From positions 62,001 to 126,000 of the forward strand of contig NZ_VAUA01000012.1 of the NCBI RefSeq assembly GCF_005771405.1: DNA of 64,000 nucleotides, in the 5' to 3' direction. Each line of letters opens with the position of its first letter. Position 1 is the stretch's first letter. The stretch is from Parasedimentitalea maritima. GTDB lineage: Bacteria > Pseudomonadota > Alphaproteobacteria > Rhodobacterales > Rhodobacteraceae. Both the position numbers and the translations under genes were made by a program. The notes beneath the pieces are model-generated. The model was given only the letters and a program-made list of their open reading frames with translations, had not been told where the DNA came from and ran no database searches. This document shows positions 16,388 to 32,593 of the stretch, in pieces.

Positions 16388-17442
16388 TTGGACCTCGGGT
16401 CGAAGATTTTGTAAAGAAGGTCGGAGAAGATATTCAGGCAGATGAAGATCAACCCGACTACCACGGTCGCACCCAGCACAGCGTTCATGTCCGCAGACAA
16501 CAGTGCAGTTGTCAGATAGTTCCCGATACCAGGCCAAGAAAAGATGATCTCGGTCAGCACTGAGCCTTCCAACAGATTAGCGTAGCTTAACGCGATTACC
16601 GTAATCAGCTGGACCCGAATATTGCGGAATGCATGGCGCCATACTACGGCCCATTCGCTCATACCTTTGACCCGGGCGGTGGTGACGTATTCTGCTGAAA
16701 GCTGCTCTAACATAAACGACCGTGTCATTCGGCTGATATAGGCAAGGCTATAGTAACCCAGCAAAGAGGCAGGCAGGATGATATGGGAAAAGGCGTCGCG
16801 GAAGGCCCCCCAATCACGTGCAAGAGCGGAATCCACTAGGATCATGCCTGTCACGGACGGGATCATGTCTTCGTAGAAAATACCTTGACGACCGGGTCCT
16901 CCAACCCATCCCAGCACACCATAAAACAGCAATAGTCCCATAAGGCCCAGCCAGAAAATGGGCATGGAATATCCAACAAGAGCCACCACGCGGGCAATTT
17001 GGTCAATCCAGCTGCCACGGCGCACGGCAGCGATCACACCAAGTGGGACACCCAGAACGATACCAATGGTAATTCCAATTGTGGCCAGTTCCATTGTAGC
17101 GGGGAACACACGTCCGATGTCGTCAGAGACGGGTCTTGCCGTCAACAACGACATGCCAAAATCGCCGTGGAGGACATCCCAAACGTAGTAAGAAAACTGT
17201 ACGATGAGCGGCTTATCGAGCCCAAGCTCAAGATATGCCGCGTGATATTGTTCCTGCGTGGCGCGTTCGCCTACAACAGCCAGAACCGGTTCGATAGGCA
17301 TAACCCGACCAATGAAGAAGGTGACAAACAACAGGCCAAGCATTGTGACCGAGATTGACGCAAGGGTGACGAGCGTGCCCTTGAGCCAAGAAGGAAGAGG
17401 CAGCCGGGGCTGCCTCTTCGGATTATAGTGCGTTGACGACAT
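16384..17442 (-). CDS. Peptide ABC importer permease (DppB type)
   Basis: 352 aa with about six membrane spans and the DppB features DFGMSLLTARPVSDDI, MSEWAVVWRHAFRN and the closing FSWPGIGNYLTTALLSADMNAVLG. Its ATG follows the binding-protein stop with no gap. Codons 8-17 form a strong perfect hairpin (listed separately) that may limit expression of the permease and ATPase genes relative to the binding protein. It is the first permease of the dpp-like operon. Confidence 0.93.
   Translation of the reverse strand: MSSTHYNPKRQPRLPLPSWLKGTLVTLASISVTMLGLLFVTFFIGRVMPIEPVLAVVGERATQEQYHAAYLELGLDKPLIVQFSYYVWDVLHGDFGMSLLTARPVSDDIGRVFPATMELATIGITIGIVLGVPLGVIAAVRRGSWIDQIARVVALVGYSMPIFWLGLMGLLLFYGVLGWVGGPGRQGIFYEDMIPSVTGMILVDSALARDWGAFRDAFSHIILPASLLGYYSLAYISRMTRSFMLEQLSAEYVTTARVKGMSEWAVVWRHAFRNIRVQLITVIALSYANLLEGSVLTEIIFSWPGIGNYLTTALLSADMNAVLGATVVVGLIFICLNIFSDLLYKIFDPRSK
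17394..17419 (-). other. Perfect 12-bp hairpin inside start of dppB-like gene
   Basis: GAAGAGGCAGCC (17394-17405) and GGCTGCCTCTTC (17408-17419) are perfect reverse complements with a 2-base gap (4-base loop in practice). On the minus strand it lies 24 bases into the permease reading frame, right after the binding-protein gene. A stem in this place could protect the upstream message from 3' decay and reduce readthrough or translation of the permease. The following bases are only mildly T-rich, so a full terminator is unlikely. Confidence 0.6.
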
Positions 17443-19038
17443 TTACTTGGTCACGGTCCAATATGAAACCGCAGTAATCGCGCCACCGAGGTTCAGACCC
17501 TCGACATCTTCGTTGATGCCTGCTGGCTCAATCTTCTGGAACATCACAGCAAAAGGAGAGGTATCGCGGAATGTTGCCTGGATTTCATGATACATCGTTT
17601 CACGCTTGCTGCGGTCGCCTTCGACCACGGCGGCGGCAGACATGCCAGTCAGCTTGCCAGTATCCCAGCTGTTACGCCATGCCAGCAAACCAGTCGCCTG
17701 AGCTTCGTCCGAATTGTCGGGGTTGTAAGCAAAGGTGCCAGCGTTTGTGTGGGGATCAGGATAGTCCGGGCCCCAAGCACCAAGGTAAATGTCCAGTTCA
17801 CGGGCGCGGTACTTGGACAGAACCTGTTTACCAGTCCCAACTTCCAGGTTCAGCGTGATGCCAGCCTGCGCAAAGGTGTTTTGCAGCGACTGACCGATTT
17901 CCAGACGTTCCTGAGCTTCGCGTACACCAACAGTCAGTTCCAGACCGTCAACACCAGCTTCGGCCAATAGAGCCTTTGCCTTTTCAACATCCATTGAGAA
18001 CGGGTTCTCGTCGACGGCACCAAGATAGGTGCGCGGCAGGAAGTTCTGGTGAGTAACATATGCGCCCTTGAGGAAGCTGTTCTGCATGCCTTCATAGTCG
18101 ATCAAGTACTTCAGTGCCTGACGGACTTCGGGCTTGGACAGCTCCGGGTGCTTCTGGTTCATCGAGATATACATCAGACGACCGCGCATCTCTTCGAGCA
18201 CTTCGACGCCTTCTGCGTTGCGAACACCTTCAACATCTGATGGGTTCAGATCGCGAGCCACGTCAATGTCGCCGCGTTCCAGCATCAGACGCTGGGTAGC
18301 ACTTTCCTGAACGTGACGAACGATCACGCGCTGCATGGCTGGCGCACCAAGATAGAAGTCAGGGTTAGCAGTCAGAGTGACGCTTTCCTTGGCTTTCCAG
18401 CTGGCAAGGCTATAGGCGCCGGAACCAGCTGAGTTGGTTTTCAGCCACTCATTGCCAAGATCGCCATCAACTTCGTTGGCCATAACGGTCAACTCATCAA
18501 CAACACCACCGATAGTTGCTGTTAGGCAGTTCAGAACAAAAGATGTCGCGTATTCTTTGTCTGTGGTGATCGACACTGTGTTGCCGCTGACAGTGATGGT
18601 TTCGTCCATGTTCTCAGGAGTGAAGCCAAACTGTGTCAGGATGAAGGATGGTGTTTTGTTCAGTGCGACAACGCGCTTGAACGAAAAAGCCACATCTTCG
18701 GCGCGAACTGGATTGCCCGAATGGAACTTGACGCCTTCTCGCATGGTGAAGGTGATGGTTTTGCCATCTTCTGAGACAGTCCAGCTCTCGGCCAAATCAG
18801 GCTGGTAACCAGCGTCTAAGTTGTTGGGGTCAAAGTTGACCAGTTTGCCGTAGATGTTGCGCAGCACGTCTGAGCCAGCAAATTCAAAGCTTTGTGCTGG
18901 ATCCAGAGTTGTGATGTCGTCTATGCGATTGGCAATGACCAGCATGTTCGCTGGTGTTTCTGCCATAACTGGCAGGGCAACGCCGCCCAAGGCAAAGCCA
19001 AGTGCAGCTGTCCCCATTAATTTTGTAAAAGCATTCAT
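17443..19038 (-). CDS. Periplasmic peptide-binding protein (ABC solute-binding family 5)
   Basis: 531 aa, the DppA/OppA size. The signal peptide (MNAFTKLMGTAALGFALGGVALPVMA) is followed by the family 5 start DITTLDPAQSFEFAGSDVLRNIYGKLVNFDP. AESWTVSEDGKTITFTMREGVKFHSG is the core family motif. It captures peptides in the periplasm for the DppBCDF-type importer encoded immediately downstream. AAGGGAG precedes the ATG. The dipeptidase gene 46 bases upstream suggests that di- or short peptides are the cargo, though family 5 proteins also bind other solutes. Confidence 0.93.
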   Translation of the reverse strand: MNAFTKLMGTAALGFALGGVALPVMAETPANMLVIANRIDDITTLDPAQSFEFAGSDVLRNIYGKLVNFDPNNLDAGYQPDLAESWTVSEDGKTITFTMREGVKFHSGNPVRAEDVAFSFKRVVALNKTPSFILTQFGFTPENMDETITVSGNTVSITTDKEYATSFVLNCLTATIGGVVDELTVMANEVDGDLGNEWLKTNSAGSGAYSLASWKAKESVTLTANPDFYLGAPAMQRVIVRHVQESATQRLMLERGDIDVARDLNPSDVEGVRNAEGVEVLEEMRGRLMYISMNQKHPELSKPEVRQALKYLIDYEGMQNSFLKGAYVTHQNFLPRTYLGAVDENPFSMDVEKAKALLAEAGVDGLELTVGVREAQERLEIGQSLQNTFAQAGITLNLEVGTGKQVLSKYRARELDIYLGAWGPDYPDPHTNAGTFAYNPDNSDEAQATGLLAWRNSWDTGKLTGMSAAAVVEGDRSKRETMYHEIQATFRDTSPFAVMFQKIEPAGINEDVEGLNLGGAITAVSYWTVTK

Positions 19039-19084
19039 GATATTACTCCCTTTTGTTTATTAGCAGATAAGACCCTGTGTATTT

Positions 19085-20134
19085 TTACATCCAGGTCAGG
19101 TCGAGGACGCGCAGCCAATTCTCATGGCAAAGCTTCCTGATAAGTGCGGCGTCATAACCGCGGTCAACCATAGCGGTGCGCAGGTTTGGCAATCCAGCGA
19201 TGGTTTTGATTTCAATTGGCACAGCGGCACCATCAAAGTCGGACCCAAGTCCAACCCGTTCTTCGCCAAGCTGTGCAATAAGATAGTCAAGGTGATCCAA
19301 CATGGTTGTGATGGGGGTATCTTCATCCATTCGACCATCGGAACGCAAGAAGGCAACCGCAAAATTTAAACCAACCATTCCGTCACTTTCGCGAATGGCG
19401 TGCAACTGACGCTCAGTCAGGTTCCTGCTGTGCGTACTAAGTGTATGGGCATTCGAGTGGGTGGCGACCAGCGGTTTAGTGCTGTGCTTCGCAACATCCC
19501 AAAACCCAGCGTCGTTCAGGTGAGACAGATCAACCATGATGCCTAGGTCGTTGCATTTATTGACTAAACGAATGCCGTCGCTGGTCAGTCCTTCGCCGGT
19601 ATCCGGCGTGCTAGGAAAGCGGAAGGGAACACCATGACCAAAAATGGTTGGGCGGCTCCACACTGGGCCAAGAGACCGCAAACCTGCCTGATAAAGCACT
19701 TCCAACGTGTGAAAATCTGGATCAATGGCTTCGGCGCCTTCCATGTGCATTACAGCAGCCATTTTGCCTTCGGCCATTGCGTCTTTGATGTCTTGCGTAC
19801 ATCGGCAGACTTTTAGTGCACCATCACGTTCCAGATTGAATAGAACTGATGCCTGTGACAGAGCCACCTTGATGGCATCGCCCCATTCAACTTGAGGGGG
19901 CAGCGGTAAGTCATAGCTACTTGCCATCATCTCGTCGTGACTGTCGGACAGAGCTGCTGCACCGGGGATGTAGATCGCAAAGAACCCGCCCGCAAAACCA
20001 CCGGTACGAGCTTTGTCTAGATCGATTTGCTTACCACCTGATCCCTGGAAGCCATCTTTGCCCGGGCTGATATCGCGTTGGTGGAGGCGTAGAAGAACAT
20101 CATTGTGCCCGTCGAAAATCAGCGGTTCGTGCAT
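19085..20134 (-). CDS. Membrane-dipeptidase-family zinc peptidase (M19)
   Basis: 349 aa from ATG at 20134, supported by AAAGGAC seven bases upstream; an ATG at 20170 would add 12 residues. The metal-binding HND in FDGHNDVLLRLHQRD near the start, a glutamate in VMHMEGAEAID, and histidines in VDLSHLNDAGFWDV and THSNAHTLSTHSRN match the renal dipeptidase binuclear zinc site. GLGSDFDGA near the C terminus is also diagnostic. No signal peptide is seen, so it is likely cytoplasmic. It probably hydrolyses dipeptides taken up by the importer encoded downstream in the same operon. Confidence 0.92.
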   Translation of the reverse strand: MHEPLIFDGHNDVLLRLHQRDISPGKDGFQGSGGKQIDLDKARTGGFAGGFFAIYIPGAAALSDSHDEMMASSYDLPLPPQVEWGDAIKVALSQASVLFNLERDGALKVCRCTQDIKDAMAEGKMAAVMHMEGAEAIDPDFHTLEVLYQAGLRSLGPVWSRPTIFGHGVPFRFPSTPDTGEGLTSDGIRLVNKCNDLGIMVDLSHLNDAGFWDVAKHSTKPLVATHSNAHTLSTHSRNLTERQLHAIRESDGMVGLNFAVAFLRSDGRMDEDTPITTMLDHLDYLIAQLGEERVGLGSDFDGAAVPIEIKTIAGLPNLRTAMVDRGYDAALIRKLCHENWLRVLDLTWM

Positions 20135-20196
20135 GAATAGTCCTTTGGAGTGAATCGTCGTAAGTGGCACCTTGCAGCATTATTCAATGAGTTCAT

Positions 20197-20283: not shown

Positions 20284-20946
20284 TTACGCGTCTTTCAGCC
20301 CGTAGTTGCTGAACGCAGCGAGAACATCCTCGATTTCAGAATTGCTTAGAATGTGTGGCTCACCAATGCTCAGGCTTGCGACATATCCTTTGGCGAGTGT
20401 TTCAAGCTCAACCATCCGCCACATGGCGCGCTCCAGAGTGTCACCAACAACGACGGAACCGTGGTTGGCCATTAGGCAGCCGTGCCGGTCTTGCATCGCC
20501 TTATCCAAGTTGTCCGAGAGTGCTGCGCTGCCGAAAATTGCATAGTCGGCCAGTCGTACTGAATTGCCACCAAAAGCGGCAACCATATAGTGACAGGCAG
20601 GGATTTCGCGGCGGTTCATGGCCAGAGCGCTGCAATAGACTGGATGGGCGTGCGCCACGGCATGACTGTCAGGTTTGGAAAGCAGCAGCGATTGATGAAA
20701 CCGCCATTCGGTAGAAGGTTTCAACTGTCCAGGATCTGGCGTGTCGCTCGTAAGCGGCATCGAAACAATCATTTCGGGGGTCAGTTGATCATATGCGACC
20801 CCAGACGGGGTGATCAGCATCTTGTTACCCGCTCGAACAGAAATATTGCCTGATGTGCCCTGATTGATACCCAGAGTGTTCATCGAAAGACAGGCATCGA
20901 TCACTGCTTGACGAATTTCAGTGCAGTCAGAATAGGGGGATTTCAA
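20284..20946 (-). CDS. Class II aldolase (FucA-like), proposed 5-(methylthio)ribulose-1-P aldolase
   Basis: 220 aa. Zinc ligands H99 and H101 (HAHPV) and H162 (NHGSVVVG) and the catalytic E80 (STEW) are all present at spacing identical to E. coli L-fuculose-1-phosphate aldolase, offset by seven residues. GTSGNISVR (30-38) and TPSGVAYDQL bind phosphate in this family. MtnB-type dehydratases share the fold, but the FucA-like spacing and the lack of other methionine-salvage genes point to an aldolase. With MtnK- and MtnA-type genes it would split the ketose-1-phosphate into DHAP and an aldehyde. The start is TTG, overlapping the regulator stop as TTGA. Confidence 0.8.
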   Translation of the reverse strand: MKSPYSDCTEIRQAVIDACLSMNTLGINQGTSGNISVRAGNKMLITPSGVAYDQLTPEMIVSMPLTSDTPDPGQLKPSTEWRFHQSLLLSKPDSHAVAHAHPVYCSALAMNRREIPACHYMVAAFGGNSVRLADYAIFGSAALSDNLDKAMQDRHGCLMANHGSVVVGDTLERAMWRMVELETLAKGYVASLSIGEPHILSNSEIEDVLAAFSNYGLKDA

Positions 20947-21929
20947 GTTGTTGTCTCCAGCATGGCAGCAGCGGTATCGGTGCAGGTTGCGATATGGGTG
21001 GCATAGCCACCTTTAATGGCTGCCAGCATCGGCATAATTCGATCGGGCCCAGTACCAACCATCAAAGACAAATCTTTGTTGCGCATCTGATCCAACGAAA
21101 CTCCGATCATCCTGTCTTCGATAGATATCGGCAGGGCTGCGCCGCCCTGATCGACAATGCGGCCGCAGATTACAGCGCTAGCCCCTTTGGTGACCTGATC
21201 GCGCATTGAGGCCGCACTGATGATACCTGCTTGCACCACATGGCTGTCCTCACGGCAAGTGCCGGCAGCAAATATCGTTTTATTACAGCTTTCTACGGCC
21301 TGAAGTTGTTCTGCCACCACGGGTTCAGCACGGAGTTGGTTAGCAAGGTTCTTATTTGTCAGCAATAATGGGACATGAAGGTTGATGCAATGCGCGCCAA
21401 ACCGTCGCGCCAGCGTTGCAGAGCAGGTCTCTGCGGCAAATCCAAGGGCCGCAGGGCGCGATCCGACCAGCTGCACCACGGTTAAGTCATCCATGACTGT
21501 GTGAGGTGCGGCCTCGGCCACGCGATAAACAGTTTCGCCCCAGGCAACACCTAATCGATCACCGGGTTCCAGCAATGTTGGCAACCAATCCGCAGTGCCG
21601 CGCGCGACACGCTCCAACGTGCCGCGATCTGTCAATTCGGAGGGCACCACCAATGCATCCTTGAGGCCGAATTTTGCAACCATATCGCGCGCCAATTTCT
21701 GGTGCCGGAAAATATCGGGATCAATTGTAATCCGAACATATTCGCGCCGACGTGCCTCTTGCAGGTAATTCACCACAGACGCCCGGGAGATGTTCAAACG
21801 CTTGGCGATATCGTTTTGGTTCAGGCCTTCTATATAGTAACACCAGGTTGCTTCCAGAATTGCATCGTCTTGGCGGTCAGATCGGGAGGAACTAGCCATA
21901 ACGGTGGATTTGCCTTTGGGTGGGGCCAT
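20943..21929 (-). CDS. SorC-family sugar-responsive regulator
   Basis: 328 aa from ATG at 21929; a TTG at 21935 would overlap the MtnA stop by three bases. The N-terminal helix-turn-helix is LNQNDIAKRLNISRASVVNYLQEARR, followed by the SorC sugar-phosphate-binding domain (GVAWGETVYRVAEAAPH, VVQLVGSRPA). Such proteins (SorC, DeoR of Bacillus, CggR, LsrR) respond to phosphorylated sugars. Its place inside the kinase-isomerase-aldolase operon suggests the effector is a (methylthio)ribose phosphate intermediate. The 17-base palindrome at 24353-24369 is the obvious candidate operator. Confidence 0.85.
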   Translation of the reverse strand: MAPPKGKSTVMASSSRSDRQDDAILEATWCYYIEGLNQNDIAKRLNISRASVVNYLQEARRREYVRITIDPDIFRHQKLARDMVAKFGLKDALVVPSELTDRGTLERVARGTADWLPTLLEPGDRLGVAWGETVYRVAEAAPHTVMDDLTVVQLVGSRPAALGFAAETCSATLARRFGAHCINLHVPLLLTNKNLANQLRAEPVVAEQLQAVESCNKTIFAAGTCREDSHVVQAGIISAASMRDQVTKGASAVICGRIVDQGGAALPISIEDRMIGVSLDQMRNKDLSLMVGTGPDRIMPMLAAIKGGYATHIATCTDTAAAMLETTT

Positions 21930-21931
21930 GA

Positions 21932-23038
21932 TCAAGCCGCGTCAGCTTCGGCGCGATCTGGGAACATCGCGGCCAGGCCTTGGGTGCTCGCCTCGCAGAC
22001 TCCGCGCTCAGTGATTAAACCTGTGACCAAACGATTAGGTGTGACGTCAAAGGCTGGATTGCCACCTGCGGTACCGTCTGGGGTTACCTGAACTGTCCCA
22101 ATGCGGCCGTCCACCAACCGGCCCTGTACATGAGTGATTTCTTCCTGACCACGTTCCTCGATCGGAATTTCGGCAACACCGTCATCAACGGTCCAGTCGA
22201 TGGTAGATGAGGGCAGGGCGACATAAAACGGTACATTGTTATCTCGCGCTGCAAGCGCTTTGAGGTAGGTTCCAATTTTATTGCAGACATCGCCGCGCCG
22301 GGTGGTGCGATCCGTGCCAGTAATGACCATATCTACTTGACCATGTTGCATTAGGTGGCCGCCAGCATTGTCGGTAATGTACTGATGGTCAATACCGTGA
22401 CAGCCCAGTTCCCATGAGGTCAGAGCACCTTGATTGCGCGGACGGGTTTCATCCACCCAGACATGGATCGGAAGACCTGCGTCATGTGCGTGGTACATGG
22501 GGCTGGTGGCCGTGCCCCAGTCAACAGTTGCGAGCCAGCCTGCATTGCAATGTGTCAACAGGCGAACCGGTTCGCCTTCTGGTTTCCTAGCCGCAATTTC
22601 TCTAATGATTTCTAGCCCATGCACGCCGATCATGCGGTTGATTTCGACATCTTCATCTGCCATTTCATGGGCCAGAGCCAGTGCTGCAGAAGCGCGTGCT
22701 TCAGTGGGTATTGGACGCAGTAGATCCCGGCAGCGGTTCAACGCCCAGCGCAGGTTGATCGCAGTGGGGCGAGTTGCATTAAAATATTCCCAAGCTTTGT
22801 CCATTGCACTGTCTGACGGGTCCAGCCGCATTGCCAGTGCCATGGCATAGGCTGCTGTGGCGCCGATGAGCGGAGCGCCTCGCACGCGCATTTCAATAAT
22901 AGCGTCGGCAAATTCAGTTAGGGTATCGATCTGCTGAACGCGAAAGTCATGTGGCAGCCAACGCTGGTCGATAATCTGCAATGCGTTCTTGTCTGTGTCC
23001 CACCAAAGCGAGCGGTAGTGAGTTCCATTTACTTTCAC
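21932..23038 (-). CDS. mtnA: S-methyl-5-thioribose-1-phosphate isomerase (MtnA family)
   Basis: 368 aa. It carries the aldose-ketose isomerase signatures of MtnA: MRVRGAPLIGATAAYA, catalytic C164 (THCNAG), D243 (GTDRTTRRGD) and NKIGTY. VWVDETRPRNQG is also typical. It converts the aldose-1-phosphate to the ketose-1-phosphate; family members also accept 5-deoxyribose-1-phosphate. The start is GTG, overlapping the kinase stop as GTGA. It lies between the MtnK-type kinase and the SorC-type regulator. Confidence 0.92.
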   Translation of the reverse strand: MKVNGTHYRSLWWDTDKNALQIIDQRWLPHDFRVQQIDTLTEFADAIIEMRVRGAPLIGATAAYAMALAMRLDPSDSAMDKAWEYFNATRPTAINLRWALNRCRDLLRPIPTEARASAALALAHEMADEDVEINRMIGVHGLEIIREIAARKPEGEPVRLLTHCNAGWLATVDWGTATSPMYHAHDAGLPIHVWVDETRPRNQGALTSWELGCHGIDHQYITDNAGGHLMQHGQVDMVITGTDRTTRRGDVCNKIGTYLKALAARDNNVPFYVALPSSTIDWTVDDGVAEIPIEERGQEEITHVQGRLVDGRIGTVQVTPDGTAGGNPAFDVTPNRLVTGLITERGVCEASTQGLAAMFPDRAEADAA

Positions 23039-24297
23039 AGGAAATCCCCCTTGTTGTATTGGCGTGCCAGGGCAACTAGGGTTCCGGCGTCCAAAATTTG
23101 ATCTGATGTAAGAATAAGTTCTCGGCCCATCATAAGGTTACGGGCTTCTAGCGACGCCCGAAATGCGCTGTCTTTGATTTCTTCAAAATCTGCGTTGTGG
23201 GCCAATGATAGTGTCCTGCGATGCATTTCAATGCCACAATAACCCATGGCTTCGGTGCGGAGGTGGTTTAACAGCGACTGTAGTGCGGCTTGCGAGGAAT
23301 GTCCCTGATCCTCAAACAATGTCGCCGGATATAGCATACCGGTTCGTTCATTGTTCCAAAGTGTGGTGAATTCGTCTTCAAACGTGACAAGGCTCTCACT
23401 GATTATGGCCAGTATCCATTCCTGATACTCATCGAGTGTATCCTCACTGCGATGGCCGGGTTGGCTGAAGTAGGCCATTAGGAAGTTCGCAATCAGCATT
23501 CCGAGATCAAAGCTCATTGGACCGTACTGTGCAAACTCCGGGTCGATCACCATGCTGTCGGTTGCCGTAGACATCACCGAACCGCTGTGCAGGTCGCCGT
23601 GCACCATGGTTTCAGTGTTAGAGGCAAAACTCATGAATAACTCTTGGACCCGCGTCTTTAATTCGACATCTTGCCGCAATTCGTTGACCACATCATCCAA
23701 TTCAGGGGTGTGATGATTTCGTTCCGCGTTGAAATACGGATCAGCAAATACCAGAGCCTCGGTAATTGCTGGTATTTCAATATTGCCTGCAAACAGGCTG
23801 ACGTCAGTCTTCTTATCACTACTTTTCATGGAAAGCTCTGATCCACGAAAGGCTGTGCGGGCGCAAAATGTTCCAAGGAAAGTCGCCAGACCCTGAACTC
23901 TTTCACCTGCGATCAATTTGTGCCGCAATATCGTATGGGGCGATAGAAACTCCATCACGATCAACGCCTGGTCATTATCAAAGTGATATATCTCGGGCAC
24001 GGTACCGGGATTGCGTGCAGCCTGACGAACAAGTGCTTCATGTTCATAGTAGGCGCGATACAGCGGCAGCGGCCAGCTGTCACCAACCAGGCGAACATAG
24101 GGCAGGGCCTGCTTTACAATAGCACTGCCTTTGCTGCCCTCGACGATGAACACTAGGTTGAGATTGCCGTCACCGACCTCCTGAATCTTCCAGTCCTTGG
24201 TTTCTGTCCCGACCCGGCTGGTGAGAGAGGTCAATTCGCCCAGGCGGGTACTCAATGTGTCTGACGTCAAAGCTTTATACGCTGTCGTTTGAAGCAT
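23035..24297 (-). CDS. mtnK: S-methyl-5-thioribose kinase (MtnK family)
   Basis: 420 aa, the length of MTR kinases. VGDGNLNLVF (41-50) is the nucleotide loop, K62 the ATP lysine, HGDLHSGS (233-240) the catalytic loop and DPEFAQYGP (252-260) the metal-binding motif; the last two are hallmarks of MtnK rather than other choline/aminoglycoside kinases. It phosphorylates free 5-methylthioribose, or a similar 5-deoxypentose, at C1. GGGAGGA precedes the ATG. It is first in the operon and divergent from the importer genes. A free-sugar kinase is what an import route would need, unlike MtnP-based salvage. Confidence 0.93.
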   Translation of the reverse strand: MLQTTAYKALTSDTLSTRLGELTSLTSRVGTETKDWKIQEVGDGNLNLVFIVEGSKGSAIVKQALPYVRLVGDSWPLPLYRAYYEHEALVRQAARNPGTVPEIYHFDNDQALIVMEFLSPHTILRHKLIAGERVQGLATFLGTFCARTAFRGSELSMKSSDKKTDVSLFAGNIEIPAITEALVFADPYFNAERNHHTPELDDVVNELRQDVELKTRVQELFMSFASNTETMVHGDLHSGSVMSTATDSMVIDPEFAQYGPMSFDLGMLIANFLMAYFSQPGHRSEDTLDEYQEWILAIISESLVTFEDEFTTLWNNERTGMLYPATLFEDQGHSSQAALQSLLNHLRTEAMGYCGIEMHRRTLSLAHNADFEEIKDSAFRASLEARNLMMGRELILTSDQILDAGTLVALARQYNKGDFL

Positions 24298-24352
24298 GTG
24301 CTGGGTCTTCCTCCCTTTGGCTTAGATCGGAAATCGCACAAACTTCTACATA

Positions 24353-24369
24353 TGTCAAATCGTTTGACA
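24353..24369. promoter_or_regulatory. 17-bp palindrome in divergent mtn/importer promoter region
   Basis: TGTCAAATCGTTTGACA is a perfect inverted repeat (7+3+7) in the 135-base gap between mtnK and the ABC ATPase gene. Each arm contains TTGACA reading outward, so a -35 box for either direction would lie inside the site. No strong -10 is seen at 17 bases. It is the likely operator of the SorC-family protein of the locus. Confidence 0.65.
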
Positions 24370-24432
24370 ATGTTTGATATCGAGGTTAGGAACAGGTAAG
24401 GAGCGCCTTCATCGTGGCGTGTTGGGGGATGT

Positions 24433-25947
24433 ATGAGCCAAACAATTTGCGAAGTGCGTGGCGTCGAGAAGTCCTTTGGCAGCAATCGTGTTCTGCGTGG
24501 AATTGACCTCTCTATGTGTGCGGGGGAAGTCACCGTCCTTATGGGGGCAAACGGTGCCGGCAAGTCGACGCTTGTCAAAGTGCTTTGTGGTGTTCATTCA
24601 GCGGATGAAGGGGAGCTGGTTTTGGCTGGAAACCCTTACACGCCAGTGGATGCAGCAGATGCAATTTCCCAAGGGGTTGTAACTGTTCACCAATCTATCG
24701 ATGACGGGGTTATTCCTGACTTGGATGTCGCCACTAATCTGATGTTGGATAAGCTGACTGCACCAGGCGCTGGACTGTTTGTGAATGACCGCAAACTCCG
24801 GGCTGAAGCGCGAAAAGTCGCAGAGGCCATGGGGCTGACGATGAATGTGCGCCAATTGGTATCTGAGCTGGATGTGGCTGACCGTCAGATGATTGCCATC
24901 GCGCGCGCACTCGCGCGTTCTCCCAAATTGTTGATCCTTGATGAACCTACGTCTTCTCTTTCAGCAACAGAAGCCGAGCGGTTATTTGCGTTGATCGATC
25001 GACTTAGGTCAGCCGGTGTGGCGATCTTATATATTTCTCACCGGATGTCTGATATCAGGCGCATTGCTGACCGAATTGTATCAATGCGTGATGGTAGTAT
25101 TTCGGGTTTGTTTGATACTCAACCGTTGGATTATGAGGGGGCGGTTACATCCATGTTGGGTCACGCTATGACGGATGTGGATATCACCCCGGAGACCAAC
25201 AGCGCACCTATTTTGTGTTTAAAGGCCATCAAGCTCCGTGAAGACAGTCCTCCAATTGATCTGGTTGCCAATGATGGTGAAGTGATCGCGGTGACTGGCT
25301 TGCTTGGTAGCGGCAAAAGCCAATTGGCTGAGGTCATATTTGGATTGTCGCGGCCCATTGCAGGGAAAATGAAGTTGGATGGCGGTAGCTATCAGCCCGC
25401 CAATGCAAAGTCCGCCGTGAGTGCCGGCGTTTTCATGTCGCCCAAAGATCGCGCAAGTAATGCGGTTATCCCTGATTTTGACATTGCGAATAATATGACG
25501 CTGCCATTCCTGGGGAGCTTTAGCCGTTACTATAAGCTGTCGGATCGAAAGCAGCGGCGCGCGTCCGAAGAGATGATCGGAAACATTGGCATCGTATGCC
25601 AATCCAATCGTGACGGGATTGGCACCCTGTCTGGAGGAAACCAACAGAAGGTGATGATTGCGAGATGGCTGCTAAAGCCCGGTCGGGTCTTGTTACTTGA
25701 TGAGCCGTTTCAGGGAGTGGACATTGGCGCTCGGCGGGACATTGGTCGCCATATTCGAGCCACCGCCAAGGGGCGTGCAACAATTGTATTTGTCGCTGAG
25801 ATCGACGAGGCGCTTGAAATAGCCGATCGGATAATTGTGCTGAACGAGGCCGCAATAGCCGGCGAACACATCAACCAAAACATAGACTTGGCAAAACTGG
25901 TGGCAGAGGTCTCTGGCCCGTCGCTCAGCCCAGCCTTAGCAGGATAA
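24433..25947 (+). CDS. Ribose-type (CUT2) ABC importer ATPase, two domains
   Basis: 504 aa with duplicated ABC domains as in RbsA/XylG. The first has GANGAGKST, the degenerate signature SELDVADRQMIAIARAL and LLILDEPTSSLS; the second has GLLGSGKSQ in place of a canonical P-loop, LSGGNQQKVMIARWL and VLLLDEPFQGVD. The atypical second P-loop is common in this subfamily. It powers the permease encoded 13 bases downstream. Because it diverges from mtnK and shares its control region, its sugar is probably 5-methylthioribose or 5-deoxyribose. Confidence 0.92.
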   Translation: MSQTICEVRGVEKSFGSNRVLRGIDLSMCAGEVTVLMGANGAGKSTLVKVLCGVHSADEGELVLAGNPYTPVDAADAISQGVVTVHQSIDDGVIPDLDVATNLMLDKLTAPGAGLFVNDRKLRAEARKVAEAMGLTMNVRQLVSELDVADRQMIAIARALARSPKLLILDEPTSSLSATEAERLFALIDRLRSAGVAILYISHRMSDIRRIADRIVSMRDGSISGLFDTQPLDYEGAVTSMLGHAMTDVDITPETNSAPILCLKAIKLREDSPPIDLVANDGEVIAVTGLLGSGKSQLAEVIFGLSRPIAGKMKLDGGSYQPANAKSAVSAGVFMSPKDRASNAVIPDFDIANNMTLPFLGSFSRYYKLSDRKQRRASEEMIGNIGIVCQSNRDGIGTLSGGNQQKVMIARWLLKPGRVLLLDEPFQGVDIGARRDIGRHIRATAKGRATIVFVAEIDEALEIADRIIVLNEAAIAGEHINQNIDLAKLVAEVSGPSLSPALAG

Positions 25948-25960
25948 GTCGGCGAAAATC

Positions 25961-26977
25961 ATGAACAACGAACGTATTTTAAATTTGGCAATCCGCTATG
26001 GTTTTTTGGTTCTGCTAGCCGGTATTGTTATGTACTTCAGCCTTGCGGCAGAAGGGTTCGCCAGCCCTCGATCGGCCGTTTTTGTGCTGCAATCGGTGGC
26101 TATCACCGGCATTCTGGCACTTGGGGTGACCAGCACACTTGTGGTCGATGGTTTTGACCTTTCCATTGGATCTGTTGCGACCTCATCTTTGATGCTGTCT
26201 GCGTATTCTATGGTTATTCTGGAATATTCCGCGTTTGTAACAGTTTTGCTTTGCCTGACAATGGGCGCCCTAGTTGGGTTGGTAAACGGGTTGCTGATCG
26301 TCAAAATGCGGGTGCCGGATTTGTTGGCAACATTGGGTATGATGTTTCTGCTGATTGGATTGCAGCGCATTCCTACTCAAGGGAACTCGATTGCGACCGG
26401 TATGCGCTTGCCCGATGGGAGCATTGCAGAGGGAACCTTTGCAGCTGAATTTCTTTGGATTGGCCGTCACCGGTTTGATATGTTTATAGAAAAGCTCTTT
26501 CCGATGCCCGTAGTGGTGTTCCTACTGGTGGCTGTTGCGGTTTGGCTTTTCCTTGGTTTCACGCGCCACGGTCGACTTATGTACGCGATCGGCTCAAACC
26601 AACGCGCCGCTGAACTGGTGGGGACCAACGTCAGCCGCTACAAAGTCCTAGCTTACATGATCTCCGGTGTTCTGGCCTCGGTCGGGGGGATCTTATTGGC
26701 AGCACGCCTTGGGCGCGGAGATATTGCCTCAGGTAACAATCTGCTGCTGGATAGTGTGGCGGCGGCACTGATCGGGTTTGCAGTGCTGGGAGCCGCTCGT
26801 CCTAACGCATTTGGCACCGCAATTGGTGCGCTGTTTGTTGGCATCTTGTTGCAAGGGCTAACAATGATGAACGCCCCTTACTACACACAGGATTTTGTGA
26901 AGGGAGCGGTGCTGGTCGCAGCGCTTGTTTTCACATTCTACCTGTCGTCCCGCAGATCCTCTGCTGGTCGGCATTGA
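25961..26977 (+). CDS. Ribose-type ABC importer permease (RbsC type)
   Basis: 338 aa with about nine to ten hydrophobic segments. VVDGFDLSIGSVATSSLM is the RbsC-family motif (usually G-x-DLS-x-GS), and NGLLIVKMRVPDLLATLGMMFLLIGLQRI fits the following helices; the late GDIASGNNLLLDSVAAALIG resembles the RbsC substrate-path loop. It forms the homodimeric channel for the importer. It lies between the ATPase and the binding-protein genes. Confidence 0.92.
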   Translation: MNNERILNLAIRYGFLVLLAGIVMYFSLAAEGFASPRSAVFVLQSVAITGILALGVTSTLVVDGFDLSIGSVATSSLMLSAYSMVILEYSAFVTVLLCLTMGALVGLVNGLLIVKMRVPDLLATLGMMFLLIGLQRIPTQGNSIATGMRLPDGSIAEGTFAAEFLWIGRHRFDMFIEKLFPMPVVVFLLVAVAVWLFLGFTRHGRLMYAIGSNQRAAELVGTNVSRYKVLAYMISGVLASVGGILLAARLGRGDIASGNNLLLDSVAAALIGFAVLGAARPNAFGTAIGALFVGILLQGLTMMNAPYYTQDFVKGAVLVAALVFTFYLSSRRSSAGRH

Positions 26978-27005
26978 ATATCGTTATTTCATGGGAGGAA
27001 TACAC

Positions 27006-28052
27006 ATGTTTCTGAGACGTCAGATGTTGAAACTCACGGGCGCTGCGGCGCTGACCTTGGGAATGGGCGGGGCGGCGCTGGCTGGTGATATGCCTGCACC
27101 CTTCGATAAGGCTGGTGAGGTGAAAATTGCCCTTGTCCGCTATCTGTCTACGGGTGACTTTTTCCAATCCTACCTGTCTGGAGTTGAGACCCAAGCGGAA
27201 GCACTGGGTGTCGATCTAAGGGTATTTGATAGTCGCCAGGATGCGGCCTTGCAGGCTGACATGGTGGATCAGGCGATTGCGCTTGGGGTTGACGGGATCA
27301 TCATTCAGCATGGACTGACTGAGTCAATGAAGGACGCAGCCCAACGCGCTGTCGAAGCAGGCATTAAGGTTGTCGCTTTTGATGTGAATGTCGAAAACAC
27401 CGCTATTCCGCAGGTCGAGCAATCGGACTATATGCTGGGTAAACTGGCGCTTGAGCAGGCAGTGGTTGACAATGGCGACAACTTCACCGCCGGCTATGTC
27501 TACGTTCCAGGTATTGCACCGCTGGACCGTCGTGACGTGGCTTGGGAGGATATCAAAGCGGCCAACCCAGGCATCAAGCAAGCCGCAATGTTTGGGACTT
27601 TGGATAATCCAATTGCAAACTCGGTTGCCAACCAGGCGCGGTCTGTCTTGCAGGCCAATCCAAATATCAATGTGATCTTTGCGCCCTATGATGAATTTGC
27701 CAAGGGTGTAAAAATCGCCGTGGACGAGGCTGGATTGACTTCAGACATCAAGATCTATTCGGCGGATGTGTCGACAGCTGATATCTCGGCAATGCGCGAG
27801 CCGGGGTCTGCCTGGGCAGCAACTGTTGCCACTAACCCAGCTGTTGTTGGTGAAGTTTCAGTCCGGACTTTGGCGCTGATGTTGGCCGGTGAAACGCCTG
27901 ATGCACAGGTTATTGTGCCACCAACCTTGATCACTCAGGATTTCCTGAATGCCGAAGACATCAAGAACATGGGGGATCTCGGTTCGAAAATGCCGCAGTT
28001 CGCCCACGCTGATGTTTCGATGGCTGACTGGATGCCTTTGCCGAAGCGCTAA
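27006..28052 (+). CDS. Periplasmic sugar-binding protein of ribose type (RbsB-like)
   Basis: 348 aa from ATG at 27006, preceded by GGAGGAA; an upstream start at 26925 would overlap the permease and lack a signal peptide. The signal MFLRRQMLKLTGAAALTLGMGGAALA may use Sec or Tat. The mature part is a type-1 periplasmic binding fold (VDGIIIQHGLTESMKDAA, IKVVAFDVNVENTAIPQV, ADVSTADISAMREPG). It delivers the substrate to the importer. A terminator follows the gene directly. The binding site cannot be read from sequence; 5-methylthioribose or 5-deoxyribose is inferred from the divergent operon. Confidence 0.9.
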   Translation: MFLRRQMLKLTGAAALTLGMGGAALAGDMPAPFDKAGEVKIALVRYLSTGDFFQSYLSGVETQAEALGVDLRVFDSRQDAALQADMVDQAIALGVDGIIIQHGLTESMKDAAQRAVEAGIKVVAFDVNVENTAIPQVEQSDYMLGKLALEQAVVDNGDNFTAGYVYVPGIAPLDRRDVAWEDIKAANPGIKQAAMFGTLDNPIANSVANQARSVLQANPNINVIFAPYDEFAKGVKIAVDEAGLTSDIKIYSADVSTADISAMREPGSAWAATVATNPAVVGEVSVRTLALMLAGETPDAQVIVPPTLITQDFLNAEDIKNMGDLGSKMPQFAHADVSMADWMPLPKR

Positions 28053-28075
28053 TTCTGCCAAATATCGACTAATTG

Positions 28076-28110
28076 ATCCCGGTGCGTGGTTTCGCACCGG
28101 GATTTTTGTT
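28076..28110 (+). terminator. Rho-independent terminator after importer operon
   Basis: ATCCCGGTGCG and CGCACCGGGAT form a perfect 11-base-pair stem with a 6-base loop, followed by TTTTGTTT. It closes the CUT2 importer operon. Confidence 0.9.
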
Positions 28111-28297
28111 TCTGGACCTCCGGAATTGCGGCCCTACGGCCAGATCCAGAAGATCAGCGAACTTATGCCAAATGTTCTAGGATTCTTGCAGTTGGCTGTA
28201 CGCTTGATACACATGGGTGAATTGAACCTAAATTACATTAGGGATTCCTTTGCCACGGCAGGCAGTTGCCCGCCGGATGCACCCGAAAGGCGCAAGA

Positions 28298-29461
28298 ATG
28301 ACCCGTATCAAACAAACACAACCAGCACTGCGTTCCGTGACACGCCGGATTTTGGCGGTGAGTACCGCAATAGCCCTTTGCACTGCACCAATGGCCATCG
28401 CACAAGAGACAGCTCCAGCACCAAAGGTGTCGGTGATGGCGGCGGTGACTAAGCCCATCCGCAACTCGGAATCCTTCATTGGCCGCGGCGAAGCCAAAGA
28501 TAAGGTGGATGTAATTGCACGCGTGAGTGGGTATCTTGAAGAAGTGTTGGTCGAAGACGGCGCTGAAGTGCAGGCTGGTGATCTGCTGTTTCGTATTGAG
28601 CGAAGTGCCTATGAGGCTACGTTGGAAGCCCGACGCGCCGATTTAGACAAGGCCGAAGCCAATCTACAGCTGGCGTCAGTTGATCTTGCCCGAAAACAGG
28701 AACTTTTCACGCGTGGTGCGGTTCCCGAAGCAGAGCGAGATACCGCTTTGGCAAATGAAAAAGTAAGTGAAGCACAGGTTCGAGCAGCCAAGGCAGCTAT
28801 TCAACAGGCGGAGCTTGACCTGAGTTATACCGAAGTGTTTGCGCCTTTTGCTGGTCGTGTAGGCCGGGTTGCTGTCAGTGTTGGCGATGTGGTCGGTCCA
28901 ACCAGCAAGCCGCTGGTAAATGTTGTGCGCGAAGCCCCGATCTATGTGTCTTTTGCTTTGAACGAAAAACAGTTCGTCAGCATTCTGCAAAAGATAGAAG
29001 GCGCAGAAGTTACGGAAGAACAAGAACGAGAACTGTTCGAAGTATTTGTAATCCTTCCCAATGGTACCGAGCTGGAAAAACGTGGTAAGTTTGCATTTGC
29101 TGACAACCGAATTGATCCAAACACAGGTGCAATCACTCTGCGAGCTGAGTTTGAGAATACCAGCCGTTTGATTGTTGATGGATCGTTTCTTACGGTTGGG
29201 TTGGAGGCGCAGAAAGCTGAGGACCGGATTGTCATCAGCCAGGCCGCGATGCAGCGCGATCAACAAGGACCATTTGTACTGGTAGTAGATGACCAGCAGT
29301 TGGTTGAACAGCGGTACATCGAAACTGGGGATGTTGTGGGAACCGGTATTATTGTGCTGGATGGGCTTGAAGCGGGTGAAACCGTCGTAGTGGAAGGCCT
29401 GCAACGTATACGCCCCGGCGCCAAGGTCGATCCGGTTCTGGCCAATCAGGCCGGAGAATAA
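28298..29461 (+). CDS. RND efflux periplasmic adaptor (membrane fusion protein)
   Basis: 387 aa from ATG at 28298 (AAAGG upstream); an ATG at 28250 would add 16 residues before the signal sequence. A signal peptide ending in APMAIAQ is followed by a lipoyl-like half (VDVIARVSGYLEEVLVEDGAEVQAGDLLFRI), a helical hairpin about residues 85-140, the second lipoyl half (APFAGRVGRVAVSVGDVV) and a beta-barrel domain. No N-terminal lipobox cysteine is evident. It links the RND pump encoded three bases downstream to an outer-membrane channel. Confidence 0.92.
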   Translation: MTRIKQTQPALRSVTRRILAVSTAIALCTAPMAIAQETAPAPKVSVMAAVTKPIRNSESFIGRGEAKDKVDVIARVSGYLEEVLVEDGAEVQAGDLLFRIERSAYEATLEARRADLDKAEANLQLASVDLARKQELFTRGAVPEAERDTALANEKVSEAQVRAAKAAIQQAELDLSYTEVFAPFAGRVGRVAVSVGDVVGPTSKPLVNVVREAPIYVSFALNEKQFVSILQKIEGAEVTEEQERELFEVFVILPNGTELEKRGKFAFADNRIDPNTGAITLRAEFENTSRLIVDGSFLTVGLEAQKAEDRIVISQAAMQRDQQGPFVLVVDDQQLVEQRYIETGDVVGTGIIVLDGLEAGETVVVEGLQRIRPGAKVDPVLANQAGE

Positions 29462-29464
29462 GCC

Positions 29465-32400
29465 ATGCTTTCATCCGTATTTATTTCGCGACCTAAGTTT
29501 GCGATCGTAATTTCTCTGGTTCTGACCATTATGGGGGCAATTGGGTACCTAGCTCTACCAGTCGCCCAGTTTCCCGATATTACACCGCCCGTGGTCAGCG
29601 TGAGCGCCAACTACACTGGCGCCAACGCAGAAACAGTTGAGAAAAGTGTTGCCGCACCAATTGAAGCGCAGGTGAACGGTGTGGATGACATGATCTATAT
29701 GTCGTCCAGTTCTTCTGACACTGGCAGCTATTCCCTTTCTGTTACTTTTGAAGTGGGAACTGATCCCGACATTGCTTCGGTCAACGTTCAAAACCGAGTA
29801 GCTCAGGCGATGTCTGGCCTACCGGCTGAAGTCACATCGTCCGGCGTGGTGACGCAAAAAAGTTCCACCAATATGCTATTGGTGGCAACGCTGACCTCGC
29901 CCAATGATACCTATGATGATGTTTTCTTGTCTAACTATGCAGCCATCAACATCAAGGACGCGCTCAGCCGGGTCCAGGGCGTTGGTAAAGCTGACATTCT
30001 AAACAACCTGAGCTATGCTATGCGGATCTGGATGGATCCGAACAAAATGGCTGGGCTGAGCATCACACCCGGTGATTTGATCAATGCGGTACGAGAGCAA
30101 AACCTCGAAGTTTCTGCAGGGCAAATTGGTGCGCCACCGGTTCCCGGAGATCAAACATTCCAGTACACCATCAAATCCAAAGGCCGTCTGACAACGATTG
30201 AAGAGTTTGGTGATATTGTTATCCGTACCGGTGAGGCAGGCAGCACCGTACGTGTGCGCGACGTGGCCACCGTGGAACTGGGAGCCGAATATTACAGTGT
30301 TTCAGGCTATTATGAAGGTAACAAAGCAACAATTCTGGCTGTCTATCAGGCGCCAGGAGCCAACGCACTTGCCGTATCAGAGAATGTGTTGTCGGAACTG
30401 GACCGCTTGTCAGCGTCTTTTCCAGACGACGTCGTTTATTCAGTACCGTTCAACACAACTGACTTCGTTGAACAATCTCTAAACGATGTGGTGTCGACAC
30501 TAATTCTTGCCTTTGTACTCGTAGTTTCAGTGGTTTTTGTCTTCCTTGGCTCATGGCGTGCAACAATTGTGCCAGCGGTCGCAATCCCTGTATCCCTGAT
30601 CGGCACATTTGCATTCTTGCTGCTGCTGGGGATGTCACTGAACACAATTTCGCTGTTTGCTTTGGTTCTTGCCATTGGCATCGTGGTTGATGACGCCATC
30701 ATCGTAGTGGAAAACGTAGAACGCATTATCGCCGAGGAAGGGCTGAGCCCCGCTGATGCAACCCGTAAGGCCATGGGGCAAATCACCGGACCCGTGATTG
30801 CGACCACATTGGTCTTGTTGGCGGTGTTTGTTCCAGTGACGTTTATGCCCGGTATCACTGGCCGACTGTTTTCTCAGTTTGCTGTGACCATTTCGGTGGC
30901 GGTTGTGATTTCGTCGATCAACGCTCTGACGCTGTCGCCTGCACTTTGCGCACTGGTTCTTAAGGCGCGTTCTGGTCCTCCGACGGGACTACTGGCCAAG
31001 TTTGAAAACGTGATTGATGTTATGCGCAATGGTTATCTTGGCATTGTTGGTCGTCTACTACGGTGGCCGTTCTTGGCGGTGGCAATCGTCATAGCAATGT
31101 ATGCCGGCACGGGAACACTTTTTGGCGTCACCTCCAAGGGTTTCTTGCCAGCCGAGGACAATGGCTACCTGTTTGTTGATGTACAGCTGCCAGATGCTGC
31201 GGCATTGGGTCGTACTGAAGTGGTAACCAAGCGGGTCAACGAACAGATAGAGCAAATCTCAGGGGTGAATAACACCATTCTGGTCAATGGCTTTAGCCTG
31301 CTCAATGGCTCTGGTGCAAACGGGGCTATGATCATTGTTAACCTTGATCCCTGGGATGAGCGTGAAGCGGATGAATTGCAGCCCAATGCTATCTTGGGTC
31401 AGATTTATGGCATTGCAAATGGTGAGGCTGCTGCCAGCATCGTTGCCTTTAACCCACCACCGATTTCAGGTCTAGGTATGTCAGCTGGGGTCGAGATGGA
31501 AGTTCAACAAACTGCGGGTGGTACGCCTCAGGATTTGGCTGCGGCAGTTGGGTCCTTGGTATATGCCGCCAATCAGCGTGCTGAAATCGGTCAGTCATAT
31601 ACCACTTTCCGGGCCAACGTACCGCAGGTGTTTGTTGATCTGGACCGCGAAAAAGCCAAAACTCTGGACGTGCCAATCTCAGAAGTGTTCCAGACTATGC
31701 AGGCACACCTGGGGTCATTCTATGTGAATGATTTCAACCTGTTTGGCCGGGTCTACCGGGTTATGGTGCAGGCTGATGGCTCTTACCGAGACAAGATCGA
31801 AGATATCGGCAATCTCTATGTCCGGTCTCAGGCTGGGAATATGGTTCCGTTGTCCACGCTGATGGATGTCGAAAACATCCTCGGTCCAGTCATGTTGAAG
31901 CGTCACAATATGTTCCGGTCGGCCACTGTCACCGCGGTACCTGCGGCGGGCCTGTCAACTGGGGATGCTATCCGGGTTATGCAGGAAGAAGCTGCGACAG
32001 CACTGCCTCCAGGCTACGCTTTTGAATGGACTGGAACCGCCCAGCAGCAGCAATCCTCATCCGGGTTTGTGATTGTGATCATCTTTATGGCTGTCTTGTT
32101 CACCTATTTGTTCTTGGTGGCCCAATATGAAAGCTGGACGATGCCGGTGGCAATTCTGTTGTCGGTGGTTGTGGCCATGTTTGGTGCGGTTTCCGCGGTG
32201 TCCTTAACTGGCAGCGACATCAACCTTTATACACAGATCGGTATGATCATGCTGATTGGTATGGCGGCTAAAAACGGTATTCTAATCGTCGAATTTGCGA
32301 TGGAGCGTCGAGCAGACGGCCTGTCGATTAAGGATGCTGCTTATGAGGCTGGACGTCAGCGATTTCGGGCTGTGATGATGACCGCCTTTTCATTCCTGCT

Positions 32401-32593
32401 GGGCGTTGTTCCGCTGTTGATTGCATCGGGCGCAGGGGCAGCCAGCCAAAAGGCAATTGGCGTTGCAGTGTTTGGCGGCATGCTGATGGCAACAGCCGTG
32501 GGTGTCATCGTAATCCCAGTGCTCTATGCCTTTATGCAGGGGCTGCGAGAACGTGTGAAGGGCACAGGAAGTAAAACGACATCAGTCGGTTAA
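29465..32593 (+). CDS. RND multidrug efflux transporter (AcrB/HAE1 type)
   Basis: 1042 aa, standard HAE1 length, 12 transmembrane helices and two large periplasmic loops. The N-terminal [15 protein letters not shown] and the early [29 protein letters not shown] are family hallmarks. The two proton-relay aspartates are in [17 protein letters not shown] (TM4), and the TM10 lysine lies in [15 protein letters not shown]. It is likely a proton-driven exporter of drugs or other amphiphiles. It pairs with the adaptor upstream. No outer-membrane factor is encoded nearby, so it probably shares a TolC-type channel. No dedicated regulator is adjacent. Confidence 0.93.

Follow-up and report, generated by a model that had tools for sequence, protein, structure and literature searches.

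A divergent locus of Parasedimentitalea maritima for the proposed import and dihydroxyacetone phosphate shunt breakdown of external 5-substituted ribose

5-Methylthioribose and 5-deoxyribose are waste sugars that derive from a common cell cofactor. In its published roles, as the sources describe them, the dihydroxyacetone phosphate (DHAP) shunt salvages sulfur or detoxifies by-products of a cell's own S-adenosylmethionine and, in Escherichia coli, allows growth on scavenged 5'-deoxynucleosides. In a stretch of 64,000 nucleotides from Parasedimentitalea maritima (contig NZ_VAUA01000012.1, positions 62,001 to 126,000; the whole stretch is termed the window here), two operons stand back to back, a minus-strand operon mtnK-mtnA-regulator-aldolase at 20284-24297 and a plus-strand operon for a CUT2 importer at 24433-28052. 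What would such an enzyme set do beside an importer, and which sugar would be taken in?

Our answer is that the locus very probably serves the import of external 5-substituted ribose and its breakdown by a kinase-form DHAP shunt. The imported sugar would most likely be 5-methylthioribose and probably 5-deoxyribose, too. We infer the ligand, the catalytic steps, operator binding, the effector and repression as follows. The binding protein would capture the sugar, and the CUT2 importer would take it in with ATP. MtnK would phosphorylate the sugar at C1, and MtnA would convert the resulting 1-phosphate to the ribulose 1-phosphate by isomerisation. Cleavage by the FucA-type aldolase would then give DHAP and either 2-(methylthio)acetaldehyde or acetaldehyde. 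The SorC-type regulator, itself a product of the catabolic operon, probably binds a dyad at 24353-24369 and would repress both operons until a sugar phosphate of the pathway appears.

MtnK scored 464 bits with the methylthioribose kinase model TIGR01767 (cut-off 275), and its best matches among solved chains were 2pyw and the methylthioribose kinase 2olc; MtnA scored 421 bits with TIGR00512 (cut-off 279). The motifs on which a sequence-only reading of this locus had relied, HGDLHSGS (residues 233-240) and DPEFAQYGP (residues 252-260) of MtnK and C164 and D243 of MtnA, were all located, and its assignments of a kinase, an isomerase, a SorC-type regulator, a class II aldolase and a CUT2 importer agree with the profile matches. 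It had further placed the aldolase in a DHAP shunt, known to use a FucA-type enzyme, and had seen no dehydratase (MtnB) gene, consistent with a FucA-type model at the top of the NCBIfam matches (208 bits, cut-off 264) vs 58 bits with the MtnB model (cut-off 137). Aldolase residues E80, H99, H101, H162 and Y120 align with E73, H92, H94, H155 and Y113 of FucA, which have catalytic roles in that enzyme. The protein is nearer to E. coli FucA (187 bits) than to 6btd (110 bits), which we take to be the aldolase of Bacillus thuringiensis. Cleavage of 5-methylthioribulose 1-phosphate or 5-deoxyribulose 1-phosphate is its proposed activity.

Among the matches of the importer ATPase, sugar-importer ATPase models lead, the best 25 of 192 all lying under their cut-offs. 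The permease matches BPD_transp_2 (PF02653) with 134 bits, and the binding protein matches Peripla_BP_4 (PF13407). By comparison with solved structures, the binding protein is closest to 4RY8, at 220 bits (E 5.8e-64) over nearly the whole mature length, followed by the Yersinia protein 5ULB at 137 bits and by ribose-type binders at about 65 bits or less. A Foldseek fold search with its predicted structure (mean pLDDT 86.8) ranked these proteins likewise: 4RY8 with an E value of 3e-28 and 37% identity in the fold alignment, 5ULB with 3e-23, and all others, including ribose binders, at about 5e-17 or weaker. The title of the 4RY8 entry reads '5-methylthioribose transporter solute binding protein TLET_1677 from Thermotoga lettingae'. 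Presumably the crystal also holds 5-methylthioribose as a ligand, the entry title naming only the transporter. The match somewhat favours 5-methylthioribose over 5-deoxyribose as the predicted main ligand. The leader of the binding protein (window 27006-27090) has a twin-arginine-like start, FLRRQMLK, and both leader arginines are the majority residues in a 36-row binding-protein alignment; the protein is possibly exported folded by the twin-arginine (Tat) pathway.

Salvage genes were sought throughout the source genome (4.85 Mb, given as 100% complete), which contains one MtnA match and one MtnK match. It encodes three PF01048 proteins, a 5'-methylthioadenosine (MTA) phosphorylase (521 bits), DeoD and an AMP nucleosidase. 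No MTA nucleosidase was found, with nothing over the cut-off of NF004079 and none among the PF01048 proteins, TIGR01705 not having been run on this genome. MTA phosphorylase would yield 5-methylthioribose 1-phosphate directly from internal MTA, and the kinase therefore needs free sugar from elsewhere. Free methylthioribose or deoxyribose thus appears to be without an evident internal source. Among genomic arguments for import this is the strongest, and it applies to this genome. The later methionine-salvage genes, called absent earlier, were not found genome-wide either: there was no match to MtnD/ARD and none to a RuBisCO-fold protein or a RuBisCO-like MtnW, the best MtnC score was 27 bits (cut-off 128), and the only other class II aldolase, of the PRK07490 type, reached 42 bits with the MtnB model. 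Of the canonical methionine salvage set (MtnB, MtnC or MtnW/X, MtnD), this genome thus showed no member over cut-off in searches that covered all but MtnX. The sequence-only reading spoke of a complete scavenging route. For import and the DHAP shunt we concur, but the word complete goes too far: for disposal of the aldehyde no gene is evident at the locus, and MtnA must also serve the 5-methylthioribose 1-phosphate that arises from the genome's MTA phosphorylase.

Conserved linkage of the importer with mtnK had been put forward as a check on the sequence-only reading, and it was observed. A collection of species genomes scanned with the binding protein gave 410 relatives, of which we used the best 80 (at least 79% identity). 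In six of these loci the contig stops short of mtnK; mtnK and the importer are divergent in every one of the 74 uncut loci. Chance is excluded because the divergent block recurs in every uncut locus. The loci are related by descent, and these counts are neither independent nor free of a bias to close relatives. Hosts include many Alphaproteobacteria (Roseibium, Hoeflea, Paracoccaceae and others) as well as Granulosicoccaceae, and the near relative Zongyanglinia huanghaiensis (L052) has the same block at 95-100% protein identity.

The regulator matches PF04198 with 164 bits, and its best NCBIfam model is TransRegDeoRBac, of the Bacillus DeoR repressor, at 173 bits and under cut-off. It is 30% identical to E. 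coli YjhU/MtnR over 311 residues. Between the operons lies the dyad TGTCAAATCGTTTGACA (24353-24369), whose two sides mirror each other in their outer 7 bases. The matching divergent gap of 73 related loci spans 113-214 bases as judged by match ends, and a dyad of the form TGTCAA-N5-TTGACA with at most 1 mismatch is present in 41 of these gaps vs 0.04 expected from first-order shuffles. Counting N5 or N6 spacing at the same stringency, the number rises to 61 of 73, the N6 class having been recognised post hoc upon inspection of the N5 misses. Spacing follows the regulator: N6 is found in 17/17 loci with the regulator on the plus strand, and N5 in none of them; in the main regulator class, 34 of 46 loci have N5 and none has N6. 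On a regulator tree of 69 rows, for which dyad sites with up to 2 mismatches were accepted, the N5/N6 label changes 5 times (4 changes are forced by well-supported branches), vs about 18 in shuffles. We rejected dyad spacing as a marker of one clade, as 4-5 changes on the tree make it clustered, not unique. Within 1.45 Mb of locus DNA there are 68 dyad matches, 62 of them in the divergent gap; one more falls into the corresponding gap of L124, a cut locus. By comparison, 12 permuted control dyads gave 0-22 matches each. It is likely that the regulator acts at the putative operator 24353-24369. In the whole source genome the exact dyad has 2 copies, this one and one at C3:214369, for which no clear promoter setting was seen; by eye, that copy (L135, C3:214369-214385) seems to lie within coding sequence near an efflux-type gene. 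An attempt to derive a genome-wide regulon from the dyad was dropped, given that with at most 1 mismatch a backwards control was as frequent (18 against 16 per strand).

Beyond this shared head, the relatives differ in their end-enzymes. In the 65 loci that include MtnA and extend at least 3.5 kb past it, a FucA-type aldolase is present in 26 and a match to an aldolase-dehydrogenase fusion in another 26; no locus has both. The fusion joins an aldolase to a short-chain dehydrogenase (NCBIfam PRK08324.1-6; 1029 bits in L054, cut-off 639) and would couple cleavage to oxidation or reduction of the aldehyde. On the importer side, 62 loci reach 5 kb or more past the binding protein. A RuBisCO-like protein is encoded in 24 of them, together with a two-gene split transketolase in 21 of the 24; a FucU-type mutarotase occurs in 9 and an LsrF-like thiolase in 3. 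Overall, the three-gene set of RuBisCO-like protein and split transketolase is present in 26 of the 80 loci. This cassette, in some loci with a FucU-type mutarotase, was seen close after the binding protein at L054:11637-14755, L064:11581-14704 and L071:11314-14392, and an epimerase-like gene with an LsrF-like thiolase was seen at the position of the transketolase cassette at L102:11176-12803, L093:10152-11779 and L109:11148-12771. Three of the remaining five dyad matches in locus DNA sit 23-65 bases before a transketolase match. When up to 2 mismatches are allowed, 8 of 27 loci have a dyad match before the transketolase cassette (0.43 expected) and 19 do not, suggesting that the dyads may place some of the cassettes under this regulator, too.

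The relatives' RuBisCO-like protein is nearest to the Rhodopseudomonas palustris RuBisCO-like structure 3QFW; R. palustris rlp2 is a separate entry, 2QYG. On the basis of that entry and PMC5893883, as far as the available text goes, 3QFW is probably RLP1, the methylthioribulose 1-phosphate isomerase. In relatives with the cassette, the RuBisCO-like protein would turn methylthioribulose 1-phosphate into 1-methylthio-xylulose 5-phosphate, as does R. palustris RLP1, and the split transketolase would cut this product into glyceraldehyde 3-phosphate and a methylthio two-carbon unit. We tentatively, and with considerable doubt, suggest a modular marine 5-methylthioribose regulon with a fixed head and exchangeable tails, of which the window would be one form. 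The head would comprise the importer, MtnK, MtnA, usually the SorC-type regulator and a TGTCAA-N5/6-TTGACA operator; the tail of many relatives would be the RuBisCO-like protein with a two-piece transketolase, some with an operator-like site in front. If true, the RuBisCO-like/transketolase route would be an undescribed, oxygen-independent one that recovers carbon and possibly methanethiol. Our literature search returned nothing that joins a RuBisCO-like protein, methylthioribose and transketolase, and no mention of a split transketolase among the papers listed.

Several observations weigh against the proposed import and kinase-form DHAP shunt. The aldolase lies under the cut-off of every NCBIfam model among the matches listed, FucA included. 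It is 44% identical to E. coli FucA and 41% identical to E. coli Ald2; being no nearer to Ald2 than to FucA, its sequence alone leaves the substrate unfixed. Neither aldolase type is nearby in 13 of the 65 loci, or in 14 once the match in L119 is discounted, whose supposed fusion aldolase is spurious, being a partial match (28%) at the far end of that locus. In six of the 13 (L063, L073, L080, L082, L083 and L084), the neighbours that were scanned are transporter proteins, a Rieske oxygenase, an alcohol dehydrogenase or proteins of no family, and no substitute aldolase was among them. MtnK exceeds its cut-off in 16 of 385 genomes of the class, the source genome included, and in only 4 of the other 15 is a relative of the binding protein (48-71% identity) found beside it, divergently in L043 and L049 and in a co-directional operon mtnK-importer-mtnA-aldolase in L038 and L039; none was found in the stretches of 15.7-19.9 kb, some of them contig-cut, from the other 11. 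Finally, the source of the kinase substrate varies. In a survey of 42 genomes, 38 of them close-family (L090 was left out of one scan, leaving 41), NF004079 was over cut-off in 3, all distant, and MTA phosphorylase in 26, including 25 of the 38. However, of the 13 close-family genomes without MTA phosphorylase, the five tested all carry a TIGR01705 MTA/S-adenosylhomocysteine nucleosidase. This rules out our earlier notion that close relatives lack a nucleosidase and that their kinase always depends on import, and the import-dependence argument therefore fails for some relatives. The nucleosidase genes are at L150:405-1016, L151:387-1019, L152:457-1122, L153:430-1029 and L154:482-1114. Among relatives, MTA phosphorylase and the TIGR01705-type nucleosidase seem to replace each other at the entry into the pathway.

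The dyad, too, admits another explanation. TTGACA is the sigma-70 -35 consensus, and a pair of divergent -35 boxes could account for part of the dyad. That the dyad is these boxes and no operator is unlikely in our view, because the distance between half-sites is kept at 5 or 6 bases in the 61 loci and matches recur before transketolase genes; the dyad may be both operator and -35 boxes. As for the pathway, MtnK, MtnA and MTA phosphorylase would all fit the opening steps of a complete methionine salvage pathway with its later genes elsewhere in the genome, an explanation that is hardly tenable: with no match to MtnD or a RuBisCO-like protein and with MtnC and MtnB under cut-off in a genome given as complete, it is largely refuted, and we discarded it. 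CUT2 and FucA-type families serve many sugars, some relatives carry FucU-like mutarotase genes, and the aldolase resembles FucA, all of which would suit an operon for ribose, fucose or another pentose or deoxysugar with borrowed mtn-like genes. We consider this very improbable, as MtnK and MtnA exceed strict cut-offs, the binding protein matches 4RY8 much better than it does ribose binders, and neither the open frames nor the family scans of the locus revealed an isomerase or kinase for fucose or ribose. A more serious, if still somewhat less probable, alternative to methylthioribose import is that 5-deoxyribose or another 5-deoxypentose is the true substrate and methylthioribose incidental, the locus scavenging carbon like the E. 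coli DHAP shunt. Enzymes of this type from B. thuringiensis act on 5-deoxyribose, E. coli with its set can grow on that sugar (PMC6079011, PMC10986504), and no gene of the locus evidently salvages the methylthio group. Yet the solved structure closest to the binding protein bears a title that names a 5-methylthioribose transporter, and kinase and isomerase exceed the cut-offs of methylthioribose-enzyme models, which may not separate both activities.

Much of the system has known counterparts, and the available text of the sources (the field is reviewed in PMC6302742) describes them as follows. The E. coli operon mtnK-mtnA-ald2 supports growth on MTA, 5'-deoxyadenosine and 5-deoxyribose (PMC10986504, PMC12632272) and was shown in 2025 to be repressed by YjhU, renamed MtnR (PMC12632272). 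It takes the same three steps, with identities to the window proteins of 41% (MtnK), 60% (MtnA), 41% (aldolase) and 30% (regulator), and the later salvage genes are reported missing there as well (PMC10986504). In E. coli Nissle, mtnK-mtnA-aldolase is followed by a GRP transporter with yjhU alongside and converging, whereas the window has a divergent ABC importer and a regulator within the operon; the semi-palindrome suggested for E. coli, CAAAT-N9-ATTTG (PMC12632272), differs from TGTCAA-N5-TTGACA. The 5-deoxyribose route defined in B. thuringiensis, drdK-drdI-drdA, is likewise a cluster of kinase, isomerase and class II aldolase; four such clusters include sugar transporter genes, with importer and regulator outside what was studied in the available text of that report (PMC6079011). 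Predicted 5-methylthioribose ABC transporters with mtnK-mtnA have been described as mtrACB (PMC3228920, which calls it not yet characterised) and mtnXYZ (PMC4239095). The window shares a homologous binding protein with 4RY8 and, with these transporters, a three-subunit importer beside mtnK-mtnA; the published gammaproteobacterial systems belong to full methionine salvage under MetJ, in contrast to the aldolase and SorC-type regulator of the window. In R. palustris and Rhodospirillum rubrum, the MtnA product is split between the aldolase Ald2 and a RuBisCO-like isomerase (PMC5893883). Some relatives of the window locus likewise carry both an aldolase and an R. palustris-like RuBisCO-like protein, but they have an importer, MtnK and split transketolase where R. 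palustris and R. rubrum have entry through MTA phosphorylase and a cupin methylsulfurylase. The sequence-only reading considered importer and regulator little described; with mtrACB, mtnXYZ, the drd-cluster transporters and YjhU/MtnR already published, both are less so than it supposed. A literature search for a methylthioribose transporter by that name found nothing. Already known, then, are the DHAP shunt, an E. coli MtnR of this regulator family and a predicted methylthioribose ABC importer; new in detail are the arrangement of importer plus regulator, the likely control site and the swapped end-enzymes of relatives.

In marine Alphaproteobacteria and in some Granulosicoccaceae, a dedicated ABC importer is fixed beside kinase and isomerase. 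This suggests trade in the free sugar itself as a nutrient, and the linkage of importer, kinase and isomerase would provide a gene marker for it. Dissolved MTA, the parent compound, is reported from the Sargasso Sea and, for Ruegeria pomeroyi, among the exometabolites (PMC8957919). The exchangeable tails may point to a candidate RuBisCO-like/transketolase branch.

The layout of the locus is given in Table 1. The start/stop coupling of the minus-strand genes noted earlier takes the form of a 4-base overlap at each of the three junctions, and the shared divergent region was indeed found to be exactly 135 bases. Of the span first given, 20284-28110, the genes are at their stated places; its end is too far downstream, as the last gene stops at 28052. 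The open frame of the binding protein, 26925-28052 on the plus strand, opens at TTG 26925, its likely start being ATG 27006.

Table 1. Features of the locus, in window coordinates
Feature	Position	Strand	Basis or remark
FucA-type class II aldolase	20284..20946	-	PF00596; proposed 5-methylthioribulose 1-phosphate / 5-deoxyribulose 1-phosphate aldolase
SorC-type sugar-binding transcriptional regulator, MtnR-like	20943..21935	-	PF04198
MtnA, 5-methylthioribose-1-phosphate isomerase	21932..23038	-	TIGR00512
MtnK, 5-methylthioribose kinase	23035..24297	-	TIGR01767
Shared divergent promoter region between mtnK and ATPase gene, 135 bases	24298..24432	.	open reading frame ends
Proposed operator TGTCAA-N5-TTGACA, window copy TGTCAAATCGTTTGACA	24353..24369	.	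conserved dyad
CUT2-type sugar ABC transporter ATPase, two ABC domains	24433..25947	+	two ABC_tran stretches
CUT2-type permease	25961..26977	+	PF02653
Periplasmic solute-binding protein, proposed 5-methylthioribose / 5-deoxyribose binder	27006..28052	+	PF13407

On either side, other genes continue on the same strands. Beyond the aldolase, window 16384-20170 holds genes of a peptide-type ABC transporter and an M19 dipeptidase, which are probably a unit separate from the shunt operon; of the 80 loci, the near-identical L052 is the only one in which the dipeptidase gave a match. Beyond the importer, window 28250-32593 encodes, as read by eye, an apparent membrane-fusion protein and an RND-type efflux pump.

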